DNA from: Rhytidiadelphus loreus
Lineage: Eukaryota > Streptophyta > Bryopsida > Hypnales > Hylocomiaceae
Direction: 5' to 3'
Length of the DNA: 64,000 nucleotides
Assembly (NCBI GenBank): GCA_947034895.1
Contig: OX344763.1
Span: 41,105,025-41,169,024 of the forward strand
Shown here: positions 14,486 through 63,528 of the stretch, one piece after another
How positions within the stretch are numbered: position 1 is the first letter of the stretch
Layout of the letters: each line of letters opens with the position of its first letter
Notes under the pieces: generated by a model
The model's input: only the letters and a program-made list of their open reading frames with translations
Database searches by the model: none
What the model was told of the DNA's origin: nothing
Program-made: the position numbers and the translations under genes

Positions 14486-14600
14486 TCTAAAGTAATAGGG
14501 CCAGGATTGTCTAACTATATTGCATTAGAGAGGTTATTACATTAGGGAGGATTATTTGTATACAAACATTTGTATGCAACCTAGGTTGGGACTAGCAATC
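14486..14600. mobile_element. Possible pogo/Emigrant-like MITE relic, split by the next element
   Basis: TAGTAGAAACTCTCTAAAGT and the later AGAGAGGTTATTACATTAGG resemble the AAACCTCTATAAATTAATA-type ends of plant pogo-like MITEs. A matching AGAGAGGTTTATTACTTTAG stretch follows the Harbinger-like element at about 16153-16190, as if that element had inserted into this relic. The identification is from memory and weak. Confidence 0.3.
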
Positions 14601-14612
14601 AATATTGCCTTA

Positions 14613-38497: not shown

Positions 38498-38608
38498 CAG
38501 GGTTGATGAATTTGAACATCCAAAGGCAAATCATGTCCAAATGTCCAGATTTTGCGGATGCTTGAACACAATAGATGGCATCTGTCCAATGATCAATCGG
38601 ACGGACCT

Positions 38609-39167
38609 CGGGGGGGTCATTTAGAATGTCCATTAGAAACCACGTGCAAACAAACTTTAGACCTCCTATATATTTTTTGAATTTTAAATAAAACAAAATT
38701 AAAAAAATATGAATAGATTTTACTACTTTGAAAGTTTATGTTTTGAATTATTGATATTTTTATTTGTTAATAATAATTAGTTACAAATTTTTGAAGTAAA
38801 AAGATACATTGTAGAACTAAAAAATAACTTTCACACCCCTATATTATATAAGAAAAAATTGTCTAACAAATGAACAAAAAATTTCTAAAAATAATTCGTT
38901 ATTGGAAGCTCATTTTGAGTTGAATATTGACTCAATGGTCATCTAAATGTGTCCTCTATAATTATTTGAGTTGAAAAACATGCCATTTTAGTTCATTTTC
39001 AACCTCTTCTAGAAATCATTTCATATTTTATTTGAGTTGGAAATTTTGGAAATAGAAAGCTATAGTCATTATTAAACAATGTTCAAAATTTTAGGTTGAA
39101 ATTATAGTTTATTAGGAACCACTTGTTTGCACGTGGTTTGTTATAGCAGAACAAAGTGCACCCCCCG
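38609..39167. mobile_element. 559-bp MITE with ~45-bp inverted ends
   Basis: The ends start CGGGGGG and share AAACCACGTGCAAACAA about 30 bp in, in opposite orientation (38637-38653 and 39115-39131). The interior is AT-rich and non-coding. The flanks (GGACGGACCT on the left, ATGGACGGACGG on the right) are terminal CGGACGG sequence of the truncated hAT element, so it inserted there. I could not define the target duplication. Confidence 0.75.
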
Positions 39168-39644
39168 ATGGACGGACGGACGAGTGGGAATAGCAGACAA
39201 AAGGGGCTGTAGCCTTATAGAAACTTTTGAAAATGAGTTTTGACCTTTCAGGCTTTTGGTTTAAGAACCTCTTAAGTTGGAATTCTCATTGAAAATGGTG
39301 CAAACCGCACAGTCAACCTCGTTATTTTCTTCATTTCCAAAATTATCAAAAAAAAGGAAAATTATGAAGCCAAAAGTGTTGCATTATACAATTACATTTC
39401 CATATATATAATGCTTCATTCAAAAAATAATGCACACAATCTAATTTTATTGGATTGAGCTTGGATATTGGAAAACAAAAAACCGTGATGGTATTTTGAA
39501 CATTAATAAGTTCACTTGTTCTACAATGAAAGGTTCAAACAATCAATTGCTATTATATGCTTTTATGTATCAATGTATCATGAACACTTGAACACCTAAG
39601 TATACATCCCTTCAATCCCTAAGACTGGTAATCACTATCTTCTT

Positions 39645-42600
39645 TCACCTCAATTCAACTACTATGATCTCTAGTATTCTATACAGAGTCTTCATTGCTG
39701 GATGAGTTTTCCATATTGTCTGATAAAGATTATACAATTGTCCCTCCTTCATCATGTACTTGCTTAGATGTGTGAGTGATTATTTACCCACCTATAGTTA
39801 ACAACTTCACAACCAAGTTCTTGGTAATTCCTAAGTTTTTCTGCTATTGAATGCCTAGGCGTTGGTCCATTGTGCCTTCCTAGCAATGGATCTTTTCTAA
39901 CTCCTACGTATGAAAAATAAACAAAACAACAAGAAATTCTAAATAACTATAAGTTTTACCTTTTTATCTCCACTAACGAAACCACTGTGATTTTTTATTC
40001 AAAATGAATTCAGTCTTGATGTATCATTTTTAATTGATAGAACATGCTATGCCATTTCTAAAAATATAAAACTCAACTTCATTCGAGCTTTCTAACAATA
40101 GTTATGGAGGGATGAAGTTTGACCACTAATCGATTCATCAAACTTCATCCATTGATTTCTACTAATCTACCTTATAATTTTACTTGAGATTTGACTTTTG
40201 GACTCTGAACTCTATTTACTATTTGCCTTCTAATATGGTTGACTTTGGATGATTTATCTAACTTTCATCCATTTTGACCCCTAAACTTCATCCTTCCATA
40301 TCTTGGTTGTTTTAACTCGGTTTTCTAAGTGTTATATGTTTTTGGAATCCCCTAACTAAGATCTACAACTTAAACTACCTGACTTATACAAAAGTTCTAC
40401 CTTAGGCACTCTGACTTAACATTTCAATTCGGTCCTAAGCGAGAATGTCTATTTTTTATAATTAAAAATTATGAGTAAAAACTAGTAACTTACCTCGGAG
40501 TTGGCATCCTCATGTAGGTAGTTGTATACCCCTTCAAACTCCCCATCATTTGCCATGGTTTGAAATCGTTGAGTAGTTTTGCCCACGGCTTAAAGTAGGG
40601 CTGAAAATACAAAGGTAAGGCCTATTCTATTCCTTTTCTTTAACTCTTCTTCTTTCCCTTTTAAACTATTCACCTTCTATTATTTGATTCCCAAGAGTTG
40701 ACTTAGGCTTCTCAAATAATTGCTTCAAAATTCTAACCAATAATTGACTTTTGAAATCCTACAAGTCAATTATTATTCTATCCAACTTCTAATGGTCTAA
40801 ATCACTTCCTTAAGATTTTCTCACAATCTTATCAACTTCTAATTTTTGTATAACTACTCGTATTCTTCACTCCGACTTCACACTTCAATCACTTTAAGAG
40901 TTTGGGAACTCAATGCTAGGCTAGAAGAGAGAAAGAGTGGTGAGCTAGTTTCTAAACACTCATCCTTAATCAACTCGTAATCTCTTTCTAATTCCTCCAC
41001 TTCTTCTTCTAATTGCTAAACTTTTATTTTTCCTTCCTAAGTACTTTAGCTTTCGGTCTGACTTTTGACAGCTTACTACTTTTAGAAGTTTGTGATTTTT
41101 TATAGATAGAGCCTCTCAGTAGCTTTCCGAAACTATAAGACACTTGCAATTTGGACTTCCCTAGCAAAACTTATGCATGGATGAAGTTTACCTACTAATT
41201 AGTACTTCAAAATTTCATCTTCTCATAACTCCCTCATTTCAACTCGGATTTCTACGTGCTTTATGTTTTTGGAAAGCTCTCAACTTCTACTTTCAGATTC
41301 TAAAATCCAATTTATACTGTCACCCCTTTCTAAGGGTCTGACTCCACCTTGGCCTCGGCTCTAAACTAAACCTTAATACTAACTTGGAATTGATACAAGA
41401 GGGAAGTTCAAAGCTTCGCCGTAGGATGAAAAACTTGTAAAATTCTACCAAGTTCTACAAACTTAAAGCCAAAGCTTCACCGCCGTTTTGGAAGGTGATT
41501 AAATTCTATGAAGGACTTGGAAACCACAAAGCCAAAGCTCCGCCGTGCTTTGCAAAATACACAAATTCTATAAACACTTTTAAACAACCGAAGTCAAAGC
41601 TTCGCCATATTACAAAGAACGAGGAGAATACGAACAACCACGAAGGCAAGGAATTGTTAGTAAACGATAGGCTACCACATGTTAGTACTAAAACAACTTA
41701 AAACAACACTAGAGATTTTCTCCAAGCGGCATCGCCAGTCATAGGGGAAGGAAATTCTCTAGGATTAGTGCAAGGTTAGTTCACAATACAAGGAAACTTC
41801 AACTAAATACAACCTTTAACAAACAACAACAACAACAACAACTAAGCTTAAAATACTTCAACAAAAACATAAGAAGAAGATAGCTAAGCTTGAAGGGACC
41901 CCAAGTCCTTCAAGAGAGCTTTGAAAACAACAACAAAGGAGCTTGAAATGCTCCAAAAACAAGAGAATTTGGCAACGTGGCCTAAATGGCCAAAATTCAA
42001 CTAAATGGATCCAAATGATAACAAGGCGGTTCAAGAATGAACCTAAGGGGTTATTTGAGAGAAGAATGAGCCCCCTTATATACTCTTCCAAGGTGGCTCA
42101 CCTCCTCTCAATTTCCAAGCCGTAATCTTATCAACTAAGATTTTCATCCTAATCTCCAATTTTTGACTTTCTACGCTAGTTCGAAACTTTAACTTTTGGA
42201 GAAATGCTCCAAATCACAAATAGATTGCGCCATTGGCTTCAGAAGGCCATTTTTAGGCCAAGAGAAGTCCCAACCCCTTTTCTTATGCTAAAAACTCAAT
42301 GAATCCTAGTGCCAACTTAACGACCAAAAAAGGTAAAAACCCAACTTTTGGAGGTTGACTTTTCTATGAAAAATAACTAGCCTAAGCTCTTAAGTAGGTA
42401 CAAGGGAGTAAGAAAAGACCCCACTTTGACCTCATTCCGAACTCGTATGCCGCCAGAACGCCGGTCAACTCCCCGAATTAATTTAAATTTCACTGATTTC
42501 GAGGAATTTTGTTGGTTTACTGTCTTCTGGTTATCAAAATGTCTTGAAACTTGTTGGAGCATCTTATTATTATAAAAAAAACTATATTAATTTTTAGTGA

Positions 42601-44320
42601 GATTTTATCACCACCTGGATAATTACTAGAAATTTCCCATCGTAGATTTAGGCGGTTGACTATTCGGAAAAAGATCCTTCAATGATAAAAAAAACCGAGA
42701 CTTTTCATGGAGTCTCTTATGGAACTCCATGACCCAAGTACAAGCACATATTCTCACTCTTCACTTCGGGATAGCACCAATTAAATCCCTACTCGTCTTG
42801 AATTATCGGCAGTCAGGGAATCTTCCACATACAAGGGAATCTTGGCAAATCAACTTCGCTTTTGATTTTCTGACATGCTTCTAGTCCAAAAACATAATCC
42901 AGAAGCCCCAGATTCTTCCGTGGGCCCATCTTGAGAATGTAACTCATATAGGCTAACCATTGGGTTTTTTACTATTTCGTTGATAAAGTGGGGAAATTGA
43001 AACCTCTCTTTGGGAATGAACTTAGAACCTTTCTGGACTTCCCTCGGACCAATTTAGCCTTGATGAGTCATAGGTTTGGTAGGTTTTAGGCTATTTTGGT
43101 AATATTCACTCAAATCCTACTATTTACATTAAATTTGGGGTTTTTCCTTATTCACGTGTGGGTTTTAGATGAACTAAAAGGAAAATACTGTAATTATGAC
43201 CAAATACTATAATGAAATGACACATACCTATTTTGGTTTTACACTCTTTTTTGGGCTTTTTGTACCTAAAACCTAACTTAATTTTGCAAAAATTGCAAAA
43301 ATGAAAATTATGAGTCCCAACTCCCAAGTGACGAATTGGGAGCTCACAAGATGCAAGTGACCTTATTGGTTTGCCCTTCCTCTACTCCTTTTTTGCTCTT
43401 AGTTTAGACTTTCCTATGCCTTCTTTAAGGTCATGGACTAATTTTATTATCCTCGTTGAAATAGGTTGACATACATTAAGGGGTTTTTTACCTACATTTT
43501 GTCTCTTTGATGAGGAGATAACAAAAACCTCCATTACTCTTTTCTTTTTTGCTTTTTGGGACTCTTTCACCATTGGTGGTCTTGCTTTTGATCCTCCTTG
43601 ATTGATTATCTTCGTCATGTTCAACGATTGCAATGTTCCATCAAACGATTTGAGAGGATGACGTATTGGATGGCTAAAACGCCGACCAAACATTGACGCT
43701 AATGTCTCTTTCTCATCATCGCTACATGATAAAGCAGATGAATTTGGATTTACGCAAGGGTGCATTTCTTTCGAACTGCTTAAAATGGCAATCGACTTGA
43801 TTTTCAAGCTGTGAGCTTCTGGGACCATTCAAAGTTGTAGTATTGCTTGTAAATAGTGCCGATGGATGATCATTATGTGGTGGTAATTGGGAATCACGCA
43901 CAATTTGCTTCTTGCCTTCACCATTGTGAATTGGCATTGGGCTCCCACACTCTATTACATGTGGATCTACATTCAATGCTATTTCCTATGGGTTGGCATT
44001 TTGGATACTTGAAAGTCCACTATTCTTGCAATCTTGCTTGCCAATACTTCTATTAATTCAACACTTGTATTACCCACATTCGGGTTGACCTTCACCCCAC
44101 ATTGTCATTGTTTTTAGGGTTTTCTTCTGCTTGTGCCACTGTCGTGGATGGACACTCGAAAATTGGAATCACTTCTTATGTTTAGGGAGTCCCATCATCT
44201 TGCCCATTATTGACAAACGTTGCCCTATTTTCCTCCGCTATCTGTAGATGAGTGTCCTTCTTCATTGCTGGAATGTTTTTAATACTCAACAACCCGGTTC
44301 CATGAAGGTTGTCTTGTCTG
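39645..44320 (-). pseudogene. hAT transposase C-terminal region, broken by stops and an LTR-type insertion
   Basis: From right to left, 44320-43354 reads FVDGTGLL-like (as LHGTGLL), EEN, SCSDDEKETLASMFG, RPPMVKESQKAKKKR and VCQPIST, matching the C-terminal extension of the transposase pseudogene at 61800-62640. After the insertion at 39771-43348 the frame continues at 39765-39645 with SKQVHDEGGTIV and SLSDNMENSS, matching 62700-62790. Stops and frame changes occur, so it is not functional. The BED, DUF659 and dimerisation regions are absent. Confidence 0.75.
39771..43348 (-). mobile_element. LTR-type insertion with 5-bp duplication, probably non-autonomous
   Basis: The element starts TGTGAGTGATT, ends GGGAGCTCACA, and lies between two AGATG copies (39766-39770 and 43349-43353): TG...CA ends and a 5-bp duplication, as for LTR retrotransposons. 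On the minus strand, TGGCGATGCCGCTTGGAG at about 41720-41740 resembles the TGGCGAC(T)CCGCTGGGGA primer-binding region of plant Ty3-type elements. I could not resolve the two LTRs and see no gag or pol. Around 41410-41610 an AAAGCTTCGCCG word repeats about every 60 bp. Short direct repeats (TTTTAACTCGG..TTCTAAGTG, near 40310 and 41236) also occur. Confidence 0.6.
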
Positions 44321-48143: not shown

Positions 48144-48269
48144 ATTCAAAGCAGGGTTGATAGGGCGTCTGGACGTGACGTTGGACGTTCGAACATCTAG
48201 AGTCCGCGGGAGTTGACCCTAGGACGTATTTTGACATACATGGCGGTAGATGGTGTCTGACCGCTGGAC

Positions 48270-48560
48270 GGGTGGACGGCTGATTCTTTCGACGGAACAG
48301 GAGCGGACGGCCCGACGGATCAGAAGTAGATGGCCCGACGGAGCAGGAGCGAACAGACCGACGAGGCAGGAGTAGACGGCCCGACGGAACAGGAGCGGAC
48401 TGGCGACCGGATCTCCGTCCGCCCGTTGGGGGCCCGTCCGCTTTTGACGGTGATCGTGCGATGTGACAGACGCCGATTTTCCACCGCTCGATCTTGCCGT
48501 CCGCCTGCGTGTCGTCTGATGCTCCCGTACGTGGATTCATGCTGTCCGACTACATAAATA
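48270..48560 (+). promoter_or_regulatory. CGGACGG array and TATA-like box upstream of gene A
   Basis: GC-rich words GGACGGCCCGACGG and GAGC(A)GGAGCGGAC repeat here in otherwise AT-rich DNA. A TATA-like CATAAATA follows at 48553-48560, about 170 nt before the ATG of gene A. The same motif type precedes the other genes of the element. Promoter role is inferred. Confidence 0.55.
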
Positions 48561-48727
48561 GCGGAGAGCACAGCTTATTTTGCCACAATCATTTTCCTTG
48601 CGGAGTGGGTGATCTAGTGCCTAAGGCTCTATGCGCCTCTTCCGTTTTGGTGTGCAAATGATTGTGATCGAATCCTAAATTGTTTCAAGTGTAAGTGCGA
48701 ATCATTAATCATTTAAGCAAGCTTACC

Positions 48728-49771
48728 ATGCCTCGCGATAACAAATCAAAGTCCAGTAAGAAGGGCAAATCCCAAGATATAAATTGGGATGATTGGGAAA
48801 ACCAAATGTGCGTAGCTGAACCGGAATGGGAAGAAGAGCCCAAAATATCTTGGAACTGCACAACGTGCAAGAAGTACATCAAAATGATGCACCTCTCCAA
48901 AATGTGATTAAGAGAACGCGCAGAGGTGCAAGTTCGCCGTTGGGAAGGACAAATTTCCACATGCCAAAGCAAACACTTTGTTCATTGATACAAGGAAGTA
49001 ACACGTTCAACTCAAATACGGGACTCCAAACCGAATTTAATGAACTATTCCAACATGACCATGGTTTGGGCGGAGATTGTACTTCACAAAGATGTAGATT
49101 GGCGCACAATTTACGGAAAAGATGTTACCCACTTGAATTGCAGTGATGCGTTACTTTATACCAGTTGGACTGGACCGAGCGATTGCATGCCAGAGTGGTC
49201 TAATCGAGGCCAGTTTGGATTTCCACCGGTTGTATTGCCGGATGCAGAAGATGAATGATCAAATGATGATCATGAGGAAAACACTCCAACACCCGCAAGG
49301 ATGGAAGAGAGGCACGAGCGTACAGAAGATCGGGAGGACATTCAATACCAACAAGAAATGCGAGAGGCAATGCAAAGAAGCCTAGAGGACCATGGTCGAC
49401 AATATGGCCATCATGGGGTGTACAGACCCGATCGTGGTGCATATGGCTCACAAGATACCCGAAGTATTTCACACTACGGTAATGACCCTCAAGGGAATTA
49501 TCACAGCTCAAGGACAAGCCACGGAACCACGCATGATTTTGAAGGTAACCAAGGAGGCTCCCAATATGACTTTACGTCTACTAGAGGTGGTTCTCATGGA
49601 CCTCAAGGAGGCCCTTCTTATGGGGGTTCAACTCAAGGAGCATCTACCCACAATGATTCAATTCCTCCTCCAACTTTTGGAGATCTATACCAAGGAAATT
49701 ATGGACAAGCAAGTGGGCAAAACAGATATGAAGACGACTACTATGGCGGAGGACCATTTCTCAATGTTTAA
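48728..49771 (+). pseudogene. Gene A: Cys/His-motif protein with Gly/Gln-rich tail; three in-frame TGA
   Basis: From ATG 48728 one frame of 348 codons runs to a stop at 49769-49771, broken only by TGA at 48905, 48986 and 49256. It starts MPRDNKSKSSKKGKSQD. Its next part aligns with the N-terminal part of gene C: CTTCKKYIKMMHLSKM with KTCKKYVKMYHINK, CQSKHFVH with CNNAHFIH, and WAEIVLHKDVDW with YVELILARKVDW. At the first TGA gene C has Trp; at the second, Arg. Both changes are single transitions. The C-terminal 150 residues are Gly/Gln/Ser/His/Tyr-rich (GGSHGPQGGPSYGGSTQGAS) and probably disordered. Family unknown. Most likely a decayed gene; stop-codon readthrough cannot be excluded from sequence alone. 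Confidence 0.65.
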
Positions 49772-50849
49772 AGGTCTACTGATACAGGCCCAAGCCAAAA
49801 AGATGACACCAAACCAGAATCTGAGGGAAGTAGATTGGAGTATTGGACTATTGTACATTTGTAAGATTGTAGTTGTCTCACAATAAAATCAAGTGATTGT
49901 AATCTCTTGCCACATGATATAGAAAGTGACAAGCATGATACAAAGATGTTGGCTTTTAACAAATAGTATTTTTCTATTTGTAAATTATGAATAAAATATA
50001 TTGTAATTAAGCCCTAAAGCCCTATGGATGTTTTTAGAAAAATGGATTTGTTCAGACCACTTCTACTTTATGTACCGTAGAAAAACATAAACATCAATTT
50101 TTTTTGGGAATTTAAACATAGTATGTTGTACATAACTTATTTGAGAGTATGGCGCAGAAATTTCAAAATTTTTGACCGCATGGATTGGAAGATATGGCAT
50201 TCTAAGCACTGCATTTGAAATTGAGAATGCCTTTAATCTCAGACAAAATTTGCTTAAAGAATTTTTTACAAATTAAAATCTGCAATTTTGGTTTAATTTA
50301 CAAGACCACAACCCAATTATGCTTTGGATTTTTAATTTCATTTAGGTTTCTAGAATAATGAATTGAAAATTGATTCAAGGAGTTCGGCACTTAAGCTTCT
50401 CCTAAACAAAATCAACTTCTCAAAACAACATATTGTATAATGGTATTATTTCAATACAAATGGTGTTGTTACTTTGTTGCCCCCCAATGAAAATTTGGGG
50501 GATTCTCTTGCATGTGTCATGTACATTTACATGATAGATCATACAATTTAGCACACCACCTTGCCAACCTAGGTGGCTAGGTACCCAACAATCCAACATC
50601 AATGATCCATGAAGAAGAAGAACTCCAAGTCTACATTTCTCATCCACCCAAAAAAGATGTTTTGTATATAAATAGTTTGTGTTCTGAAAAATACAAATTG
50701 TTCAAAATGGAAAGCCAATTTCACATATATTGGCATACATTGATGGTGCATATATATTCTATAGTTAGCACACATAGTAACGTACATCCTCACCGATACA
50801 TTTATAGTTTACTTCTATAATCTATAGTACTATGTAGCACACTCATATA
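49772..50849. other. AT-rich spacer between the convergent genes A and B
   Basis: It contains the 3' ends of gene A (plus) and gene B (minus). No further gene is supported. The short frames near 50602-50820 are unrecognisable. Confidence 0.5.
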
Positions 50850-52339
50850 CTAATATGAGTGACGGAAGTGGTCATCTGGAATAGGCCAATTGTAAGAATT
50901 AGTAAATCGTTGGATGATTTCGGAAAAACTTCCGCGCTCTGCAATCACTGGATTGCAAAGGCGATCCAAGTAGAGGTGAAATACCCTTGCCAAATCGTGG
51001 TGGCTAAACCTCGTATGTCCTTCATTTTCACGATGAAGCGATGTGTAGGCCTCTGACATGCATAGTTTGTTGATCCGTTGAGCTATTCGACCAACGGCAT
51101 ATTCCTCCAATTTACGTGATAAAGTTGGAATCATTTCCACATCCGCATCTTTGCGGTGCACATATGCAATTGAAGGGTCCACCCACCACCTTCGGTTCAA
51201 AGCTGCATTCCGATCTGCCGCAGATGTGAACGTACACAAAGACTTCATTGGTTCAGTACGAACCGTAGACATGCCCCAATCGCAAACTCCAATGTAAACA
51301 CGTGATTCATCCTCAAGAAAGTGAAACATGATATTGTTGGGAGAAATATCATTGTGTAGATGACCAGCATTGTGGACCGCATTCATGATATGCACCAATG
51401 CCCATGCCAACTCGGTGCGCTTCTTTCTCCATCGACCAAGACGGAAAGCTTAAATCACCTCTTCAGGCGTTGGTCGTGAATAAGACAATCGAATGGCAAT
51501 GTTATCTGGATAATCATTATCGAGGATTAACATTTGCCACAATGTACCACCATTCCACCAATATGCATACCCTTCATTGTTTGTTGCATGGACAGCGGCA
51601 AACCGAATAACTCCGTCATGTGGAATCCTCACTGCCATTGATTCGTTTTGGTGCTCCAACTTCGCAAGTTGAGGACAAATCTGTTGTTGATGAGATATCT
51701 TTGCAGCAAATTTCCAAAATGACGGAATCTCATGACTTCCTTCAATTCGAACTCTACGAATTGTTGCATATCTGCCCTTCAAGATTTTGTCATTTTGTAG
51801 AATCATCCTTGCTGTGTCTGATAGTGCTATGAGATGTTGTCGTCCACGTTGCAATTCTACATCTCCCTCATCCGAAGTCCACCAACCCAATGACCCTTGC
51901 CGATTCCGTCTCTTTGCAAATGGAGCGCAACGACGAACAAACAAGTTAGCTTTGAGAATGACTTGTTCAAAGCTTTCATCACTTACACGGTGTTCCCTCC
52001 CGTATTTTTCTAGGATCACCTTCGCATTCTACAATGCGTCTTGCACCCTATTCTTCAAAAATTGTTGGAAGTCCTTCTCCATTTCATGAATCCATTCTGG
52101 AACATTTAGAGCATCCGTGAACTTCTGTGTCATATCCATCTTGAATTTGTCTACACACTCCTCTTGGTATCTCAATATCTCACATATTTAGTGTCAAGAG
52201 ACACAGTAGCTTCCGCCTCATAAAACTTCACAATGTATTCAATCAAGAATGCTTTGCAAGCATTGGAAGGAAGTTCACGTGTTGAGTCAATATCGGGTAC
52301 CACATTCTTCTCCTTCGCCGCTTTCTTCGGTCTCGGCAT
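50850..52339 (-). pseudogene. Gene B: transposon-borne protein kinase-like gene
   Basis: Starts at ATG 52339 (MPRPKKAAKEKN) and ends at the stop 50850-50852. Kinase signs: a FAAKI lysine motif near 51700, the catalytic-loop motif HNDISPNNIMF at 51356-51324 (H-x-D-x-x-P-x-N), and CDWG in place of DFG at 51284-51273. The HxDISxxN loop recalls FunK1-like and small-molecule kinases more than plant receptor kinases. The first ~160 residues have no kinase motif. Disruptions: a frameshift near 52180, TAG at 52029-52031 and TAA at 51450-51452. A TATA-like CATATAAGG on the minus strand lies at 52571-52563. The cargo role inside a hAT element is inferred. Confidence in the kinase assignment is good; function is unknown. 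Confidence 0.7.
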
Positions 52340-52539
52340 CGTAAAAAGTATGAATTTTTAGTCCCAATTTAATTCATAAAAAATTACAGTGCACCAAGTA
52401 CACACAAACTAGAAGAAACAGGCAAAATATAGGCCCCCAAAACCCAACTCCTACCTTCCCTACGAAAGGAGCCAATGGAGGATAAACCACCAAGCTCTCC
52501 GCTCTCTCTTGCAAAGTACAAGGGGGAAGGCAAAAGTGA

Positions 52540-52880
52540 GAGCGGACGGGCCGTCTACGCCGCCTTATATGAGGCGGACGGCCTCGAGGTCCGCACGAGC
52601 GGACAGACCCCACGGCGGACAGCCAACGGTCCGCCTCGCTTCGGTCGTCCGATCAAACGGACGGATCAGCAGTCCGCTTCATTGGACGGCCAGAACAAAT
52701 TGCACAGGCGGACGCCGATTCCGCGACGTGGACGGCAGCGCCGAAATCGCGGACGGCGGCTTGCAGCACGCGGACGGGGGCCTCCATAGGCGAACGGGGG
52801 CTCCAACGGGCGGATGGGGGTTCCAACAGGCGGACGGCAGTGTCGGAACGGAGGACGGCGGGGTCCGCCTAAGCGGATGG
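52540..52880 (-). promoter_or_regulatory. CGGACGG array and TATA-like box upstream of gene B
   Basis: Dense GCGGACGG and GGCGGACGGCAGTGTCGG words lie just upstream of gene B. The TATA-like CATATAAGG (minus strand, 52571-52563) is about 225 nt before its ATG. The word GCGGAC(G/A)GCAGTGTCGGAA is shared with the array upstream of gene C, so the two arrays have a common origin. Confidence 0.55.
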
Positions 52881-52919
52881 GGGAGGGATTTTGAAGTGCA
52901 TCCCGCCCAAATTGGTCAT

Positions 52920-54240
52920 TAGAGCCTTAGGGGTCCTTGAATCCTTGATGTCACCAGTTGGCAGGCCCTCCGGTTCAATTTAATTTTTAATGTGGTTCCT
53001 TTGTGCCAATGGCGCTGGGATTTCATTTGATCTATAAATTAAAAAATAAATAAAAAATGGATGTGTGAATTTAGGAATTATCTAAAAGATTCACATATTT
53101 TTGTATGTTGTTTTTACGTGCATGCATTGAGTTTATAGTTTTTTCTTATTTTCTAGTGATGGAATTGAGTTTCCTATGAAATAAACTTTTAAATGAAATA
53201 AAGAATTTAACGCATGATAATTTAATTCTACTTATTCGAACTTCGAGAAATAACTTAAAGCTTCTCATTGTCCAAATGAAGCTATGAGGTTTTTTTCTTG
53301 TATGTCAACACCTCATAAAATGGTCATTTCAAGACCAAAGACAAAAAATCTTTTAAATGGTATTTTGGGTTTAGGGGATATTAGGGGCTCGTAAAGGTTT
53401 CGATACTCTAGTATGAAAATGTGTGGAAGTAGATTTCTAGAAGTCTACCCCCCCCCCTTTGAGTTGAATGAATTTATTGATTTCAAATGTATTGATTTCC
53501 ATTCTTTAAAGAATCATATGGTGCCAAAATATTAGCACCAAAAATATCAAGTTAAATTAATTCTAGTATGAAATTATAACTTTCTCAATCACTAGGGTGG
53601 GACAACGTGCTATGAAAATAGTGCATACACTTGTCTTCTTATAACCTCACAAGTCCATGGTCATTTCACTCTCCAAGTTCATGTGCACCCTACTAGGCAT
53701 TCAAGCAAAATTTTTAAAGTCTAAACATCTACATGGTTAGGGAATGCAAGGACAAATGTTTCTTTCATTGTGGATACTAAAAGCCCATGTTCTTTTTTCA
53801 TACGTACAACACACTTTGAATGGCTTGGGCACTCAAACCCCTAAAAGATTTGATCCATTGGAAAATGAATCAACTTTGAATATTACATGAATTGGACCTT
53901 TGGAATTGTTTGCAATTGAATAACTCCTTTCCATTTTGTTATTAGTTCTATTTGGAATTTTGGATGGCATATTTGTTTATCCAAAATCAAAGACAAAGGA
54001 TTGTGATTGTTACCCCCATTTTGACAACGAAAGGCCTAAACCCTATATCCTAAATCCTAACAAGGGTTTAGAGGCATTGAATTAGTCAAAATACTACCTT
54101 TGAGTCGGTGGATTGCCTTGACATTTATGAAAACCAAGTCAATGCTTCGAACATTGAAACATTCCTTCATCAATGAGCACCCGGTACTAGTACAACATCT
54201 CTACATTCCCAAATGAAAAAATCCTATGCTTCTGAAAATC
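52920..54240. other. AT-rich insert splitting the divergent B/C promoter region
   Basis: No gene. Part of it (about 53690-53840) is an inverted, diverged copy of 31430-31600 from the large repeat unit. It therefore looks like repeat DNA inserted between the two GC-rich arrays. The right part (about 53990-54080) has CCTAAACCC-type words. Confidence 0.5.
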
Positions 54241-54299
54241 AAGAGAGGACTTGAGGACTCAAGAGGGTGAAAACAAGGCCCAAACTCCCCAAAGTGTGC

Positions 54300-54580
54300 T
54301 TGGGCGGACCTCGGGGAGGGAAGGGCGGACGGACCCGTCGGAAATGCGGACAGCAGTGTCGGAAAGGCGGACGGATCCGTCGGAGCAAGCGGACGGGGGC
54401 CCCGATAGGCGGGGGGCAACAGGCGGACGGCGGCGTCGAGAAGGTGGACGGCATCGTCGGATTTGGAGACGAATGGGCCATCCAATTGAGTGGACGTTCG
54501 GGTCCACTTCGCGATGTTCGGGGAAGGCTCGGTGGCAGACAATTTTAGGTTTGGTTTCGGACGGCTATAAGGACGGACGG
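54300..54580 (+). promoter_or_regulatory. CGGACGG array and TATA-like box upstream of gene C
   Basis: GGGCGGACGGACCCGTCGG, GGCGGACGGATCCGTCGG and GCGGACAGCAGTGTCGG follow one another. CTATAAGG at 54565-54572 lies within GGACGGCTATAAGGACGG, about 240 nt before the ATG at 54808. Homologous words occur in the gene B array. Confidence 0.6.
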
Positions 54581-54807
54581 CCTTCTTGTTTTTTCTCACT
54601 TCCCTCTTCTTCCTAGGACTCACAACCGTGTTGGATGTGCTACTGTTGCTTCATTGTGCCAGTTGCTCCTACATGGTAGAGAGGTGGGGTCATTCATCTT
54701 TCATTATTGGTTCATATACAAGCATTCATTGAAACTTGGGTGGATTGAAGACACGTACTTTTGGTGACTATTTAAATTCAATTTGGGACAAGTTCAAGTT
54801 GACAACC

Positions 54808-57800
54808 ATGAGTGGTCAAGGCGTTGAAGGTAGTGGTGGGTTGACCGGCGGAGGTGACAATAGTAGGAGGCCTAAACCAAAGGGGACCGCCCATGAGCTC
54901 CACTATGAGATTTTAGATGATCCCAACATCAAAGCAAAGGGTGGTTGGGAAGCGGAGGAAGCGGAATATTGGTCCTCCAAAACGTGCAAGAAGTATGTGA
55001 AGATGTACCACATCAACAAGTTGTGGCCTAGGGAGGCCCACATCATCCATACTCGTGGTTTTTGTTGCAAGCCAGGGAATTGCAACAATGCGCATTTCAT
55101 TCATCGAGCGCATGAAGTTTGGTGGGCCCTCTTCGGGGATAAAGCAATGTCCAAGGGATATGTAAACTACAGCTTGGCTTCTATGGTGTATGTAGAATTG
55201 ATATTGGCACGCAAGGTGGATTGGAGTATGTTTCCAACGACAGCGAATGCTCCACATGTACTTGAATGTAATCGGAAAGATATTCCCGATTTGTACAATC
55301 CACAGGTAGGGCCAAGTGAGGCATTTAAATCCAAAAGAGAGGTCAAACCAATGACAATGACTATGACCAAGGACGTGGAGGTCACAAGTTCGGCACTGCA
55401 ATTGGCTTCAACACAAAACCGTATGGCAATGATGGATTTCAAAGGCGAGCATGTGGAGGGAGACATATTTTTAACTCCTCCAACGGATTTGATATGCACA
55501 CCAAATGGAACAACAATGGTGGAGCACGTGGCTCCATCCGCACCACATGAACGTCAGGATGAGGTCATTGAGGGAGAAGTTGCTAACGCTAGTATTGCCA
55601 TTCAGAATCTTATAGACAGCAATGCTTTAAATCATTTGGCAAGTACTTCGAAGCAAAGTTTGCCGAAGAGACTGAGCCCGACATTGAATCTAGGAGTTGA
55701 GGTGCATCCTTCACCTCATCATGGAGAACAATCGGATGGCGTGCCGCTAAATGAGACCATTCTTGGCGGATTTATCGATTCCAAGTATCCACATTTGTCA
55801 TCTTTGAGGACATCAAAATGGCAAATTGTTTGTCGGATGCCCTCGGTTGCATTATTAGAATCTTTGTGTAAAGGTTCACATTTGTGGCGGTCACATGAAG
55901 AACGTTTAAAGAACATGGAGCCCACCAATGAGGATGGCACGAGTAACGGAGGCGCGGAAACCCAACATGAGCCTTCCGAAAGTCAATGGGCTGATTTTGT
56001 TTTGACCGCATCAAAATTGGCAGTTACGGCTCAATTTGTAGCTGAAGTTGCTCCAAGGCTGCAAGAAGTTGCAACGGATTTTTCCAAATTAGCGCTTGAA
56101 TTGTTGAGTGGTGCCTTGGAGTTTGTAAAGTTCAGCCAATCTATGACACCATTTCTCGACGAGCAGGTTATAGACGAAGGTTTTGAGGGAATACCAAGAG
56201 GAGATCAAGAAGTATAAGGGTATAGATGTTGAGAATCTCAAGTTGGCGACAGATGCTTCAGAATTGAAAGAGAAGCTAGAGACATTGGAGGCTCAATCAA
56301 AGCTTCGACATAATACATTGCTTTTCCAAAGGAAGTTTATTGAAGACTTGGAGTACGAAATTGTAGCGTTGAAGAAGAAAATCCGAGAAGGTGAAGTGGA
56401 TGTTGAGAAGGGAAAGGAGAAAGTGGAGGACATACTAGATGGCATTGAGGAAAACAACAATCTGGATTTGTTATATTTGACCCCCATCGGTATACTAATT
56501 CCACATTCCACGATGCTTCCATGCAAACGGAAAGCAATGAGGTCGAAGAATTGAAGCAAAAATTGAACGAGGTCACCGAAGAAAACACGCGTTTGGAGGC
56601 CGAGTTGAAACGACTGCAACGGATAGTGCAATTGGATGAATGTATGCTGAAGAGCACTTTGGACTCTCGATGGTTGGCATGGGTGCAAAAACTCGGAGAC
56701 AAACCGTCTATAGTATCACAAGCAATGAAAGGGCTACTCAAATTGGCAATGAAGTCGGATGAAAAATGCGATAGCGTGGAGTCCTCTCTTTGGCGTTTGA
56801 AGAAGATGTTTGATTTACATCCAACAGGGTCCACCGAAATCACATATTAGGGAGACATGGATGCAATGTTCAAGCGTTTGAACCACACGAAGAAGGAAGA
56901 GGTGGCCCCCATTAATTGGGCCTTGGAACTAGAAGAAGGTTGGGTCCCTTATCCCACGCTTTCGGCACACATCAAGAAGAATAACAAGACAATGGTACAT
57001 GCTTGTGATCCTTCGGCCTTAATATTGGAGGGTCATTGTAGCCTTTGTCGAGTTCATTTTGGCCCCGAGGGAGCCCTCACCATGGGCCAATGTCCCCACA
57101 CTTTCCACATCACATGTATAGTCAGAGCATCCCTTGTTCGTTCAGTGTGCCCCGAGTGTCGTTCTCCCTTGCCTCCTAGGTTCTACGAAATGCTCAGGAT
57201 CTTAGAAGCTATGCCCTCCGGCCATGAATACAATCGATGGACCCTTCCGTTAGACCAAGCGCCATTCAAGTTTCAAAATTATGCGCATTGGGGAAAAAGT
57301 CTAACGTGGGATTCGGTAAATTGTACACATGGGCTATATGAATCATCGGAGGTGCTGATAGATTCTTTGGTGTGGATGACCCACGATCGAGAGGTGGAGT
57401 TGCGAGCTAGAGGTATTGCCAACGAGGAGGATCGAGAAGTGTTTTGTCGTAGTATGGGGGGCCATTGGAGCATGCAACACCACAAATTCTTTCGATTTCC
57501 CGAAAAGGAAGTGAAGAAAGGACTAGATGGCAATTGGATAGAGGTGGAGCCTACACAAGAGTTTAATGAGCAATACGGGGATTACAATCACACTTTGCTA
57601 GGGAGGGCCCTCTTTTTATCAAAGTTGGAGGAAGCTGCACAAATTCGTACCTTTGTGGAACTAGATGGGCAATCAAGCACAAAAAATTCAATGGTGGAGG
57701 TGGCAGGGGCATTTGATAAGAGGATGGGTGAAATCATAATGCATTGGAGGGCATTTTTATTGGGGGGAGAAGAACCAAAGTGGTTTTCCAAGAAAAATGA

Positions 57801-58011
57801 TGATGACGTGGTCAACTTTTTGGTAGATAAAGTAGATGCTGCTTTGAGAGCGTTGAAGGCAGAAGACGTGGATTTGACTCCAAAACGGAAGAATAAATGG
57901 AAGATTGAAGACGAGGATGACTACTCTCCGAATACCAAACGACACTTTTCCACAGTAGACATGGAAGCTGCATCCAGGGGGCCCATGAGTGGCAGAGGTC
58001 TTGGTCCTTAA
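54808..58011 (+). pseudogene. Gene C: Cys/His motif, coiled coil and RING-H2 protein
   Basis: From ATG 54808 (MSGQGVEGSGG) the frame runs to 56217. An N-terminal Cys/His segment (TCKKYVKMYHINK, then GFCCKPGNCNNAHFIHRAHE) is shared with gene A. A coiled-coil part continues in another frame at about 56190-56520 (LKEKLETLEAQSK, EYEIVALKKKIREG). The original frame resumes at about 56521 (EENTRLEAELKRLQ). TAG at 56848-56850 precedes the last part. That part has a RING-H2 finger at 57037-57159: C-x2-C, C-x-H-x2-H-x2-C, C-x2-C, then a ~250-residue tail with FRFPEKEV and a KRKNKWK basic segment. A RING-H2 suggests ubiquitin ligase activity. The two compensating frameshifts and one stop make this copy a pseudogene, unless it is spliced in a way I cannot see. 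I do not recognise the full architecture. Confidence 0.7.
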
Positions 58012-58429
58012 ACACGTTGGGCAAGTGCAAGGCTAAAGGATAAAGAGGGTTCGTCGCGTCTTTCTGAGGGAGGTAGCAATGATAATATATAGGGTAGTTA
58101 CACCTTGTTTGTATTTCGATATGACATTATGGAGTGTTGCTTATTTTGAATCTCGAGAGGATTCAATACTATTAATTCACAACATTCATAGAATGCTATG
58201 AATTGCTTTTCATTAATATAAAAATATGTGGATTACTCAAATGTTTTTGAATTAACTCTCCTAAGTTTTTGATATTTTATGCGATACTTTTTTGTCAAGT
58301 ATGATTTTGGACATGCCTATCTTTCAACATAATTTTATCTCATTAATTTCTTAATTCCTAAAATATCATGCATCTCTAAACTAAGTCCTTAAAATTAAAA
58401 CTTGTAGAATTAGTCAAAATCCAGCAGCC
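58012..58429. other. 3' flank of gene C
   Basis: Past the TAA at 58009 the frame stays open for 26 codons (TRWASARLKDKEGSSRL and on) to a second stop near 58092, so the TAA may be a late change. The rest is AT-rich and without a gene. Confidence 0.45.
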
Positions 58430-58850
58430 GTCTGCTAGTCCGCCACTCACTTACAATTTTGACGCTGCCGTCTGCTAATCCGCCACTCGCTTACAATTTC
58501 GACGCTGTTGTCCGCCTGTCGCAGCTCATCATCCACGATTCTGTCGCTGTCGTCCGCAATTTCGACGTTGCCATCTACCTGTCGCAAGTCGCCGTCCGCG
58601 ATTCCGTCGCTGCCGTCCGCTTGTCAGAGGTCGTCGTCCGCGATTCCGTCACTACCGTCCACCTGTCGGAGGTCGTCGTCCGCGATTCCGACGCTGCCGT
58701 CCGCGTGTCGGAGGTCGTCGTCCGCGATTCCGACGCTGCCGTCCGCGTGTCGCAGGTCACCGTCCGTGATTCCGACGTTGCCGTCCGCCTGTCGCAGGTC
58801 GCTGTCCGCGATTCCATCACTGCCGTCCGCATTACCGTTCTCGAAACCGT
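58430..58850. repeat. 42-bp GC-rich minisatellite upstream of the transposase gene
   Basis: About ten units of GTCGTCCGCGATTCCG, then ACGCTGCCGTCCGC, then GTGTCGGAG, 42 bp in the best units. Because 42 is a multiple of 3 and units lack stops, several frames stay open, giving false proteins on both strands. It holds the same CCGTCCGC motif as the other arrays and lies about 310 nt before the transposase ATG, so it may be its regulatory array. Confidence 0.85.
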
Positions 58851-60672
58851 TGGGGCTTTAGAAATGTTTTAGTTTTTGCTGCTCAACGGTCATGAGGAAT
58901 GGGCCTGATCTGAATTCTATAAGTTCTTAGAATTTCAGATTAACAAGCACTCCTGAGAAACTGAACACTAAGATTTCCAAGGGCTAGGAGCTGCAATTTA
59001 TTTTGTGTCCCTTGCTTGGTAATGCATAGTTCAGTGGACAGGGGGGCTTTGGTTTCCAAGGCTTCATTCACACATTGTTTCTAATATTTTTTACAAATCT
59101 TATCCAACGGTTACATTTTTAATTTGAATCCAATATACGGAATCGGAGGTGATCACTATGAGCAAGGATTGGTCTTCTTGGTATGGCTTCCCGGAGGTTG
59201 GTAAAGTGCAATGCCGGTTTTGCAACTTTTTGTTTGCCAAGAAAGTAAGCCGGATGTTTAGCCATTTAGGATACCAAGGCACATCGGGGGCTCGTGACAA
59301 AGGAATTAGCCTTTGCTCAAAAATGACATCTCAAGTTTGAGCTTTATTTTTGGGTTGCCAAGGGGTGAGTCCACGAAGATCGTTTCTAAACAATGTGGAT
59401 GGCAGTGGCATACCTATGGCTATGCGGGAATGCAATAATTCAAATGGAAGAAACATGGCACGGTCTACACATTCCGACTCATGCATTGCACCGGAGGATT
59501 TGGATCCATTGTCTTCTAAAGTGAACCTAAGTACACAAAGATCAAGTGAACGTGGTACTCCGCGGGGATCAAGCAATAGGCCTCTGATTAGTCAAAAGCA
59601 AAGTAGTCTGGTGAATGGATTTGAAGAAGCAAATAAACGCAAGTTGAATGCGGTGTGGGCCAATTTCTTTTATGCTGCAAACATACCATTTGTTGTTGCG
59701 AGGAACCCAGCATTCAAAGAAGTGGTGAAGAGAACAGTCGAGTTTCAACGGCCTTATATCCCACCGTCATATCACGACTTACGCCATAAATTGCTTGACC
59801 AAGCAAAGGCAGACATTGAGGTCAAACTCCAAAAGCAGACCGAACACAGCATTAGGAAGTTTGGAGCAACATTGTCTATTGATGGATGGACGTCGATTAC
59901 GAATCGGCCATTGATAAATGCCATGCTCGTGTCTTCTGCGGGTGAGCAGTTTTTGGAATCGATGGATACGACAGGGCACGAAAAAAATGCAACATACTTG
60001 GCTGGCATACTTGAGAGATTCATAGAACAAGTAGGTCCCAACAATGTGGTGCAAGTGAGTACAGATAATGTGTCAGTGAACCCTATAGCATGGAATTTGA
60101 TATCTAGTAAATATCCCCACATTTTTTTTCAAGGTTGTGTGGTGCACGCCCTCAATTTGTTGCTGAAAGATTGGGGGAATGAACAATGGATTGAAGAGGT
60201 CGTGGAAAATGCCTGTATTGTGGTGAAATTCTTCAAGAAGCGGCACATGCCACTTGCAATATTTCGGAAGTACTCACCGGAGTATAATTTGTTGATGGCG
60301 GTGGAAACAAGGTTTGCCTCTAATTACAACATGATTGGGCGCATGCTGAAGGTCAATGGGAAGTTGCAACAAACAGTGACAGACCCGCAATGAATGTCGG
60401 ATGGTGAAGAAGATAATTTTGAGCGAGCATTTTTGGCGCCGTTGTCAAAATTTCAAGGACTTGTCGGCTCCCGTTGTAAATGGTCTACGTGACTTGGATG
60501 CAAAGAGGCCATGCATGGGCAAGGTGTTGCATATAATGAGGAAATTAGAGAAACATGTCCTCTCTTTAGATAAACCGCCTTTTCGTTTATCCTCAGACCT
60601 TGCCCTTCCACTAGTGCAACCGTATTATGCCCAACGGGAATTGGTGGAGACCGATCTACATTATGCAGGAGC

Positions 60673-61126
60673 CAGGGTTGTCACCGTCACGTCCTGTCCG
60701 TCCGTCAGGATGTCAGGATTCAACCCTAGCGTCCGTCAGGATTACAAAAAAAAAAAAAAAAAATTTTTTTTTTTTTTTTTTTTTCGCTGGACGGTCCGTC
60801 CGTCGACCTGGACGGGTGGTCTGTCCACCTTGACGGGTAGTCCGTCCACTGGGACGGTCGGGCCGTCCCCTGGACGGTCAGATTGTCGACCTGAACGGTG
60901 GACGGACTGGCCGTCCAAAAAAAAAAAAAAAAAAGTTTTTTTTTTTTTTTTTTTTGACGACCTGGCTGTTCACTGGTCTGCTCCAGGGTGCCAAATTCGC
61001 TGTCAAAAAAAAAAAAAAAAGTTTTTTTTTTTTTTTTTTTTGGGCTGACGGCAATACCGACGCGTCAGGACGCGTCATGACATCCGGACGTGAAAAGCCC
61101 ACGTCACGTCCGGATAGACAACCCTG
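60673..61126. mobile_element. 454-bp hAT MITE inside the transposase gene
   Basis: Ends CAGGGTTGTC and GACAACCCTG. The 8-bp GCAGGAGC lies on both sides (60665-60672 and 61127-61134). Removing the MITE and one duplication restores the frame reading LHYAGALLNPYL. The ends differ from those of the 15-kb host in two of ten bases, so the same transposase may have moved it. The interior is GTCCGTCC-rich with three A/T palindromes. Confidence 0.92.
60746..61041. repeat. Three A-run/T-run palindromes
   Basis: A18T21 at 60746-60784, A18-G-T20 at 60917-60955 and A16-G-T20 at 61005-61041. Each can fold into a perfect hairpin of about 16-18 bp. They are separated by GGACGG-type sequence within the MITE. 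Confidence 0.95.
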
Positions 61127-62854
61127 GCAGGAGCTTTGTTGAACCCCTACCTTCTTGAAGATCAAGAGGTAGCCGACGACCAAGATGCAATGGATGCATG
61201 CAAGCGTGTTCTAATGAAAATTTGCAAACAAGAGGAGTACGCCTCGGTCGTGAAAGAATTTATAGCCTTCCGCCATAGGGAACCTCCATTTCACAACATG
61301 TTGAACCCGGATGAGCAACAATTGTCAGTGCACGCTTGGTGGGATTTTGAAAGTGCGTGTGGGAAGTTCATTGCTCCAATTGCTAAGAGGATTTTGGCCC
61401 AACCGGTATCTTCGTCTTCATGTGAACGAAATTGGAGTAGCTATTCATTTGTTCACAACAAAATTAAGAAACAAGTTGAAGCTACAGAGAGCCCAAGATT
61501 TGGTGTATGTGTACACCAATTCCAAAATCCTTTCTACATCAAAGGAAAACGATGAGAAGAAGTGGTACACCGAGAACGTGGAGTCGGAAGATTCTATGTC
61601 GAAAGACGAGCGTGATGAAGATGGTGAAGATGGTGATCCTCTATTCGATGACGAAGATGCTATGAACGATGACATCATCAATTTGGATGATGAGCCGCTC
61701 TGGAGCCCAAATCGGAACAATGAAGACGGGGATAGAAATGCGGAAGACATTTACAACTTTCCATTGGATGAGGACAATTGTGAATATGATGAAGGTGGCC
61801 CTTCGATAGCTAAATTTGTAGATGGAACCGGGTTGTTGACTAGCGAAAGGATTCTAGCAAATACGGAGGACACTCATGCACAAATAGTGGAGGAAAATGA
61901 GGCAATGTTTGTCAATGATTGCATCCCCCAAATAGATGAAGTGATTCCAATTCTCGAGAGTCTACTCATGACAATGGCACTTGTAGAAGAAAATCCCAAA
62001 GTCAATGACATGGGAGAGTGTGGGGTGAATTCTGACATGAATGTGGATAATACAAGTGTTGAATGTGTGGAAGTACCATCGAATGTAGATGCACGTGTGA
62101 CGGAGTTTGGTCGCCCAATGCTAGTTCACAACGTCAAAGCCCAGAAGCAGATTGTGCAAGATCTCCAATTACAACCACGTAGCAATCGTCCATCAACACT
62201 ACATACAAGAGGTAGTACAATTTTGAATGGTCCCGGAAGCTCGCGATTCGAGAAACAAGTTGAACAACATTTGAGTAGTCCGATCGGAATGCACCTTCGT
62301 GTCAATCCAGATCCATTCAATTTATCATGTAGCGATGATGAGAAGGACGAGACATTGGCATTAATGTTTGGTCAACGTTCTGGCCAAACAAAACGTGACT
62401 CATTCAAATCGTCTGATGGAACATTGCAGCAGATGAATGGAGCAAAGATACCCAATCAAGGAGGATCGCAAGTAAGACCACCAATGGTGAAAGAGTCCCA
62501 CAAAGCTCGAAATAAAAGATTAATGGAGGCTTTTGCAATCTCCCCATCAAAGAGACAAAGTCTTGGTAAAACCCCTCTTGATGTATGTCAACCAATTTCA
62601 GCGAGGAAATTAAAACCAATTCATGGCCTAAAAAAGGCATAGGAAAGTCTATACTAAGAGCCAAAAAAAAGCAGAGGAAAGGCCGACCAACGAGGTTAGT
62701 CGCATCCAAGCAAGTACAAAAAGAAGGAGGGGCAATTGTACAATCTTTATCGGAGGATATGGAAAAGTCAAACAATGATGAAGATGAAGATTCTGGATGG
62801 GATACTAGAGGTCATAGTAGCGGGGCAGAGGTGAAAGGAGATAGTGATTACTAG

Positions 62855-63310
62855 CCTTAGGGATGAAAGGGATGTATAATTCATTATTCAAGTGTTCATG
62901 ATGAATTGGTACATGGAAGCATGTAACGGCAATTTATTATTTGAACCTATCATTGTAATGCACATAAACTTAATGATGTTCAAAATATCATCAAGGTTTT
63001 TTTGTTTTTCAATAGTCAAGCACTATTGACTGAAATTACATTGTGTGCATCATTTTCTGCATCAAGTATTACCTATAGAAATGTAATAGTATAATGCATC
63101 AAATTTGGCTTCATGTACTGTTTTTTTTATGGATGTCCGCCCATTCGCGGGTCCCGTCCGCCCGTCCGCCCGTCCGCGTTGTCCGAACGGCCGACGGATG
63201 CAGTCCGATGGATGCCGTCCACATCGTCTGCGCGTCCCAAAAATCTGGACGTCTGGACGTCCGAAAAATGGACGTGATTTTGCCCCGGACGTTGAAATTC
63301 ATCAACCCTG
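62855..63310. other. 3' flank of the transposase gene and right end of the hAT element
   Basis: 62855-63110 is a non-coding 3' region that matches the reverse complement of about 39640-39390 in the truncated copy. 63130-63300 is GC-rich with repeated CCGTCCGCC and GGACGTC(T)GGACG words up to the inverted end at 63301-63310. Confidence 0.75.
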
Positions 63311-63528
63311 ATTCAAAGAGGACCATAGAGATCATGCAAGAAAATCATAAATATACGATGAAATTTATCTTGTATTCTATTAGAAAAATTGATCACTTAA
63401 TGAATATGAATGATATGGAAAAATACGACAATGAAGTATTTGAAAATACATTGACAGTGAGGTACTTTGTGAGGAAGTTAGGTGACCTTATTGAGCCTAA
63501 TCTGAAAAAGCAATTAATATGTGGATAG
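63311..63528 (+). pseudogene. Decayed coding fragment, second copy, cut by the hAT insertion
   Basis: Directly after the duplication ATTCAAAG the large repeat unit resumes. The frame ending at 63528 reads YDNEVFENTLTVRYFVRKL and then GDLIEPNLKKQLICG, matching 36440-36557. The part before it (KYTMKFILYSIRKIDHLMN) has no match I recognise. Confidence 0.5.

Follow-up and report, generated by a model that had tools for sequence, protein, structure and literature searches.

Locus and gene content

A 15,159-bp transposable element of the hAT superfamily occupies positions 48152–63310 of a 64,000-bp stretch of the genome of the moss Rhytidiadelphus loreus (GenBank assembly GCA_947034895.1, contig OX344763.1, positions 41,105,025–41,169,024, forward strand; this whole stretch is the window below). 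It carries a hAT transposase gene, three accessory genes named A, B, and C, and arrays of a GGACG motif (Table 1). The inverted ends and the perfect 8-bp duplication described in the original prediction were confirmed at these borders, and its three gene-sized coding regions and transposase remains were found where it had placed them. The window copy is a dead relic, with 4 stops in the aligned frame of A, 2 in B, 9 in C, and 3 in the transposase. The decamer CAGGGTTGAT of the terminal inverted repeat (TIR) has five matches in the window at ≤1 mismatch, against 4.5 expected, and is therefore no evidence by itself. The unit is more than chance because the same gene order with different duplications recurs elsewhere in the genome.

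The transposase had been predicted as a hAT pseudogene, which agrees with its stops, a 454-bp insert, and Pfam matches of the window copy to DUF659 (E 2e-36) and Dimer_Tnp_hAT (E 1e-6). The gene is intronless. In copy e1, the protein scores 39.8 bits for PF05699 (cut-off 21.4) and 122.9 bits for PF04937 (DUF659, cut-off 34.7). Its N-terminus bears Cys and His residues, with no match in a Pfam search for BED. A sequence search of PDB with the transposase at E up to 1 returned no relative.

Gene B was originally called kinase-like, and its protein in copy e1 has a clear kinase fold, in which the catalytic Lys, Glu, Asn, and Asp residues are conserved. The Pfam Pkinase match is under the curated cut-off, with E 3e-5 for the window copy and 24.2 bits against 31.7 for family 1, to which the window copy belongs. 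Gene C has a Pfam RING-H2 match in the window copy (E 5e-5), with several RING models giving E 1e-4 to 1e-5, all short of their curated cut-offs; in PDB it matched RING finger protein 24 (E 7e-6). A and C have one undescribed N-terminal domain in common, here called the A/C domain. Pfam gives no recognized domain for A, and a sequence search against PDB gave two weak matches (E above 0.6). The structure model of A was poor (pLDDT, the predicted local distance difference test, 43.7) and was left out of fold searching. An NCBIfam scan had no matches for A or the transposase, and the two kinases had weak kinase-like matches only.

Table 1. Features of the window copy; gene lengths in amino acids (aa) are from the copy named.
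Feature	Position	Strand	Details
Left target-site duplication	48144..48151	.	ATTCAAAG
Left TIR	48152..48161	+	CAGGGTTGAT
Left subterminal array, 5′ of gene A	48266..48440	+	23-bp unit around GGACGG
Gene A	48728..49828	+	A/C domain and G/Y/S/Q-rich tail; 366 aa in e1
Gene B	50850..52339	-	Protein-kinase-fold protein; 494 aa in e1
GGACG motif array, 5′ of gene B	52544..52861	.	
GGACG motif array, 5′ of gene C	54327..54579	+	
Gene C	54808..58092	+	A/C domain, coiled coil, RING-H2 (RING in 56851-58011); 1,095 aa compared, open in e12
GGACG/CGTCC array, 5′ of transposase	58551..58830	-	42-bp (2 x 21) unit
hAT transposase gene	59158..62866, end approximate	+	DUF659 and Dimer_Tnp_hAT; split by 454-bp insert; 1,095 aa in e1
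454-bp non-autonomous element in transposase	60673..61126	.	TIR CAGGGTTGTC, duplication GCAGGAGC
Right subterminal GGACG/CGTCC cluster	63155..63291	-	
Right TIR	63301..63310	-	CAGGGTTGAT inverted
Right target-site duplication	63311..63318	.	ATTCAAAG, perfect 8-bp match to left one

The 454-bp insert contains GGACG motifs and A/T tracts, and a relative lies in copy e9 (main matching pieces 84–90% alike). An older decayed relative of the focal element lies about 4–10 kb to its left (window 38498-44301, minus strand), with right end CAGGGTTGATGAATTTGAAC and transposase remnants that are 45–57% identical.

Family 1 copies in the source genome

The 407-Mb source genome was searched, and ten further family 1 places (e1–e9 and e12) were fetched as a non-random sample that was high-scoring, matched the left end, or had an open gene C. 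The original prediction had proposed looking for A, B, and C in the same order in other copies; they recur so, and the order A, B, C, transposase is kept in 8 of the 10 (e1, e2, e4–e9). These eight align over the whole element at about 91–95% identity across long blocks. Copy e3 has A and B, then a nested 26-kb element, after which the family 1 element resumes to the end of the fetched stretch. Copy e12 has B, C, and the transposase, is without the left end, and has A reduced to residues 231–366.

Both termini were visible in 11 elements (all but e3, e11, and e12), and 10 of these are flanked by perfect 8-bp duplications, each different. The duplications are ATTCAAAG in the window, CACAAAGG in e1, GCCTTTGC in e2, GCGGAAAC in e4, TCAAATGG in e5, TAACCACA in e6, CCTTCATT in e7, ATGGCAGG in e8, AACCGTAT in e10, and ATCATTAC in the nested element; e9 matches at 6 of 8 positions. 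The sequence CAGGGTTG is found at both ends of the window copy, e1, e5, e6, e7, e9, and the nested element, and the left ends of e2, e4, and e8 have one mismatch to it. Full copies have transposed as a whole, with 8-bp duplications. Later insertion of A–C was named at the outset as what would speak against one element, and all perfect duplications detected are at the outer ends, except for those of the 454-bp insert and the nested 26-kb element; no systematic scan was made around each gene. The joined flanks of the window copy had no empty-site match among the fetched loci.

The left-end search found 58 matching pieces at about 40 places (best 40 of 205 candidates). The best 150 of 1,008 first-look candidates for gene B comprise 130 places at ≥77% identity and 20 at 68–70%, and the genome holds at least 130 family 1 gene B places. 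The best 107 of 1,097 candidates for gene C are all at ≥86% identity. Among the matches listed, B lies upstream of C on the opposite strand within 25 kb at 73 of the 107 gene C places (63 within 7 kb), whereas random placement averaged 0.5 and never exceeded 3 (200 trials, coordinates only). The B–C spacing is 5.2–6.5 kb at 62 of them.

Chromosome C3, which makes up 21% of the genome, has 59 of the 130 listed family 1 gene B places (binomial p 4e-10). No C3 excess is seen for gene B of family 2 (4/20, counted by eye), and less similar gene B copies are mostly at 50–84 Mb of C3, also by eye. The pattern might mark a low-recombining or sex-linked region. Both flanks of e12 (L031:3-635; L032, e12 positions 14596-15870) have open frames from genes that were not identified, which may belong to another repeat that was the insertion site of e12. 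The rbcL contig of the assembly is a land-plant plastid in which rbcL neighbors accD, going by gene names read from the sequence. Besides that rbcL, RuBisCO large-subunit genes L036 and L037 lie on small contigs C394 and C74 and are perhaps assembly contaminants.

Families 2 and 3

Family 2, whose DNA is about 70% identical to that of family 1, is represented by e10, a 16,733-bp element that is 66–80% identical to the window copy in matching blocks, and by e11, which is 97–99% identical to e10 across most of the shared part. The gene order in e10 is B (reverse), A (reverse), C, transposase; compared with family 1, A has changed both place and orientation. Family 3 is the nested element in e3, 26,076 bp in length. 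Its proteins are 37% (transposase) and 26% (kinase) identical to those of family 1, and its kinase exceeds the Pkinase cut-off (53.8 bits against 31.7). PF05699 and PF04937 both exceed their cut-offs in its transposase pieces. The RING protein of family 3 bears the A/C domain and is 28% identical over the RING part, and two additional A/C-domain proteins are encoded. The first ten bases of the 454-bp insert in the window are those of family 3.

Selection on the four genes

Ratios of nonsynonymous to synonymous substitution (dN/dS) were calculated by the Nei-Gojobori method, with nine non-independent family 1 copies (window, e1, e2, e4–e9). Between e1 and e10, dN/dS is 0.34 for A, 0.18 for B, 0.32 for C, and 0.29 for the transposase, with bootstrap upper limits of 0.47, 0.24, 0.40, and 0.35. 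A shifted-frame control on the same alignments gave 1.03 to 1.64. The nine copies against e10 gave 0.34, 0.19, 0.33, and 0.29 in the same gene order. The comparison of families 1 and 2 shows purifying selection on all four genes. The 36 pairs within family 1 gave dN/dS of 0.73 for A, 0.49 for B, 0.58 for C, and 0.56 for the transposase. The codon-level selection suggested as a check is thus clear between the two families (0.18–0.34) and weak within family 1.

In all four genes, private variants, which occur in a single copy, have a nearly neutral distribution over codon positions (first, second, and third positions: A 45, 28, 38; B 41, 30, 39; C 173, 142, 181; transposase 113, 86, 98). Shared variants favor the third position in C (12, 9, 22) and the transposase (13, 17, 24). 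For these two genes, third-position bias in shared variants together with neutral private variants points to functional source lineages and neutral decay after insertion.

Motif arrays

A short motif particular to each family forms clusters 5′ of most genes and at the two element ends, and the separation is not absolute. Copy e1 has 64 of its 73 GGACG cores in non-coding DNA (5,368 bp) and 9 in coding DNA (9,150 bp). Clusters of cores, spaced mostly 20–23 bp apart, precede each of the four genes and also lie at the right end. The family 2 motif in e10 is TCGGACGG/TCCGACGG, with 14 of each, and GCGGACGG occurs once. The family 2 motif is found within 700 bp 5′ of A (5), C (4), and the transposase (6), and in the 450-bp ends (9 and 3). 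The family 3 motif, GGGCGAC, has 70 copies. Each of the five family 3 genes has 3 to 11 of them in the 700 bp on its 5′ side, and the element ends have 9 and 11; none is present in the three family 1 copies counted. Three further GGCGAC clusters of family 3 (about 8.85–9.05, 14.64–14.79, and 16.22–16.43 kb) are beside no recognized gene.

Relatives and comparison with known systems

At the protein level, C has 23 relatives in the searches made, B has 66, and A has 21, most of them on short contigs. Species-labeled relatives were found for gene B only, both in Ceratodon purpureus: P0048 (50%) and P0061 (42%, 126 member sequences). P0061 is on a 110-Mb contig and has a VG locus name. From its member count, gene-B-like kinases may be strongly amplified in this other moss. 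One gene B relative is in a record labeled as a Bacilli metagenome-assembled genome and was read as contamination. Kinase peptide patterns matched 21 stretches in a scan of prokaryote genome contigs, none of which was confirmed as a relative.

hAT elements are regarded as single-gene transposons. The present elements share the 8-bp duplication, a short TIR starting CAGGG, the hAT dimerization region, and DUF659 with the hAT superfamily (Ac, Tol1/Tol2, and DUF659-type plant hATs). They differ in being 15–26 kb in length and in having three or more accessory genes. Tol1 (4.4 kb) and Tol2 (4.7 kb) are presented as encoding the transposase, with TIRs (PMC10175614). A search of openly licensed PMC papers for multi-gene plant or moss hATs found nothing like this element.

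VANDAL/VANC elements, including Kaonashi (KIU), are likewise multi-gene plant DNA transposons with family-specific tandem motif arrays in non-coding DNA (PMC5735166, PMC13317346), and the family-specific VANC targets of VANDAL21 evolve through tandem repetition (PMC5735166). A VANC gene of KIU includes a Ulp1 domain of the ubiquitin-like pathway (PMC13317346), a fusion that parallels the A/C domain joined to a RING instead of a protease. The transposase is of the MULE type in VANDAL and of the hAT type here, and the word kinase, for which a gene is present here, is absent from PMC13317346. With an E limit of 0.1, Pfam scans of A (P0025) and most of C (L031:6880-10000) gave no match to the VANC domains DUF1985 and DUF287. 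Starship and Teratorn are also large multi-gene eukaryotic transposons (PMC10175614). A genome has at most about 5 Starship copies, and their cargo varies, whereas here the gene set recurs and family 1 alone has at least 130 gene B places; Teratorn is a piggyBac-herpesvirus fusion, unlike the present hAT element.

Interpretation and alternatives

The best overall explanation, to which we give a probability of about 0.65, is that the window holds a dead copy of an autonomous multi-gene hAT cut-and-paste lineage with the mechanism proposed below. The structural claim, that a formerly autonomous multi-gene hAT lineage is real, is strong, and a multi-gene autonomous hAT element is close to certain. 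The autonomous family with accessory genes envisaged in the original prediction is supported by the recurrence of A–C and by selection between families. That prediction left the choice between life cycle and cargo undecided; the balance leans to the life cycle, on one copy of family 3. A life-cycle role is favored over cargo because kinase, RING, and A/C-domain genes recur in family 3 at 26–37% protein identity, and we consider it probable that the accessory genes are part of the life cycle of the element.

Under the proposed mechanism, the A/C domain (or the transposase) would bind the motif arrays. C would bring predicted ubiquitin-ligase activity, and B predicted phosphorylation, to the chromatin of the element itself or to its transposase. 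By analogy with VANDAL/VANC, the element may then counter host silencing or set its own expression and transposition. Such array-directed counter-silencing or self-regulation has slightly less than an even chance of being the job of the accessory genes.

A possible but somewhat less probable alternative is that the accessory proteins act on transposition rather than on silencing, with the kinase and ligase tuning the amount or activity of the transposase and the A/C proteins as end-binding cofactors. TnpA is such a cofactor in En/Spm. The presence of motif clusters at the two ends, in addition to those before most genes, fits this role, but the clusters before genes suggest expression control.

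It is unlikely that A, B, and C were captured from the host by transduplication and travel with the element as passive cargo. Plant DNA transposons do capture gene parts (PMC13317346). The private variants of family 1 look neutral (third-position share 0.33–0.36 for four genes in nine copies), and A has no sign of constraint within family 1, as would suit cargo. However, the private variants are neutral for the transposase too, as expected of dead copies; dN/dS between families 1 and 2 is well below 1 for all four genes and lowest for B; and the gene set persists in family 2 with a changed order and partly in family 3.

A virus-transposon hybrid of the Teratorn or Polinton kind, with kinase and RING taken from a large DNA virus, is very improbable. 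The element size, the gene types, and a 26-kb member would fit, but the termini and transposase are plain hAT, Pfam scans of 10 + 9 proteins (a subset of the open reading frames) had no polymerase or capsid family, and viral contigs scanned twice for kinase peptide patterns, with 2 and 56 matching stretches, gave no confirmed relative at that sensitivity. Chance nesting of separate elements or an assembly error has next to no probability: nested insertions do occur (the 454-bp insert in the window and the 26-kb element in e3), but a composite is ruled out by the recurrence of the A-B-C-transposase unit in many places with different duplications, with the B–C spacing given above.

Several observations weigh against the multi-gene lineage and its proposed mechanism. 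Family 3 is known from one copy, in which the RING gene and transposase are broken, and the family 1 Pfam scores for kinase and RING fall short of curated cut-offs. The Cys residues of the A/C domain are not conserved across all seven sequences compared, so that, with the poor model of A, DNA binding by this domain is a guess. Constraint within family 1 is weak, thin for B, whose shared variants are barely third-position-biased (7, 6, 8), and absent or contrary for A, whose shared variants are nearly all at first and second positions (10, 11, 2). Because of these variants and its dN/dS of 0.73, recent selection on A is unclear, and a life-cycle role is rated somewhat lower on account of this gene. 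The family 2 gene B has no real cluster before it (1 family 2 motif in 700 bp). Motifs also turn up outside their own family: e1 has 9 copies of the family 2 motif, family 3 has 26 of GGACG, and window 1-48000 has 13 of GGGCGAC, some of which come from the older relic. The GC-rich arrays could simply be promoters or transposase sites. Among the matches listed, 34 of 107 gene C places have no B within 25 kb, which the limited extent of both lists may partly explain, and 4 have B in another arrangement.

At its broadest, the dead copy of a multi-gene hAT lineage may come from an ancient bryophyte giant-hAT lineage with array-addressed anti-silencing, a tentative picture with somewhat less than an even chance. 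Its putative DNA-binding domain would occur alone (A) and joined to a ligase (C), beside a dedicated kinase. Motif and domain would co-evolve so that each family controls only itself, as a separately evolved counterpart of VANDAL/VANC that works through ubiquitin and phosphorylation.

The conserved gene set suggests that the element comes with a regulatory toolkit of its own. Kinase, RING, and shared-domain proteins retained over deep divergence, beside family-specific motif clusters, are a new natural experiment in the management of hosts by plant transposons and a possible source of new sequence-specific chromatin tools. Some mosses are easy to transform, and with at least 130 family 1 gene B places, the system is open to direct tests in mosses.

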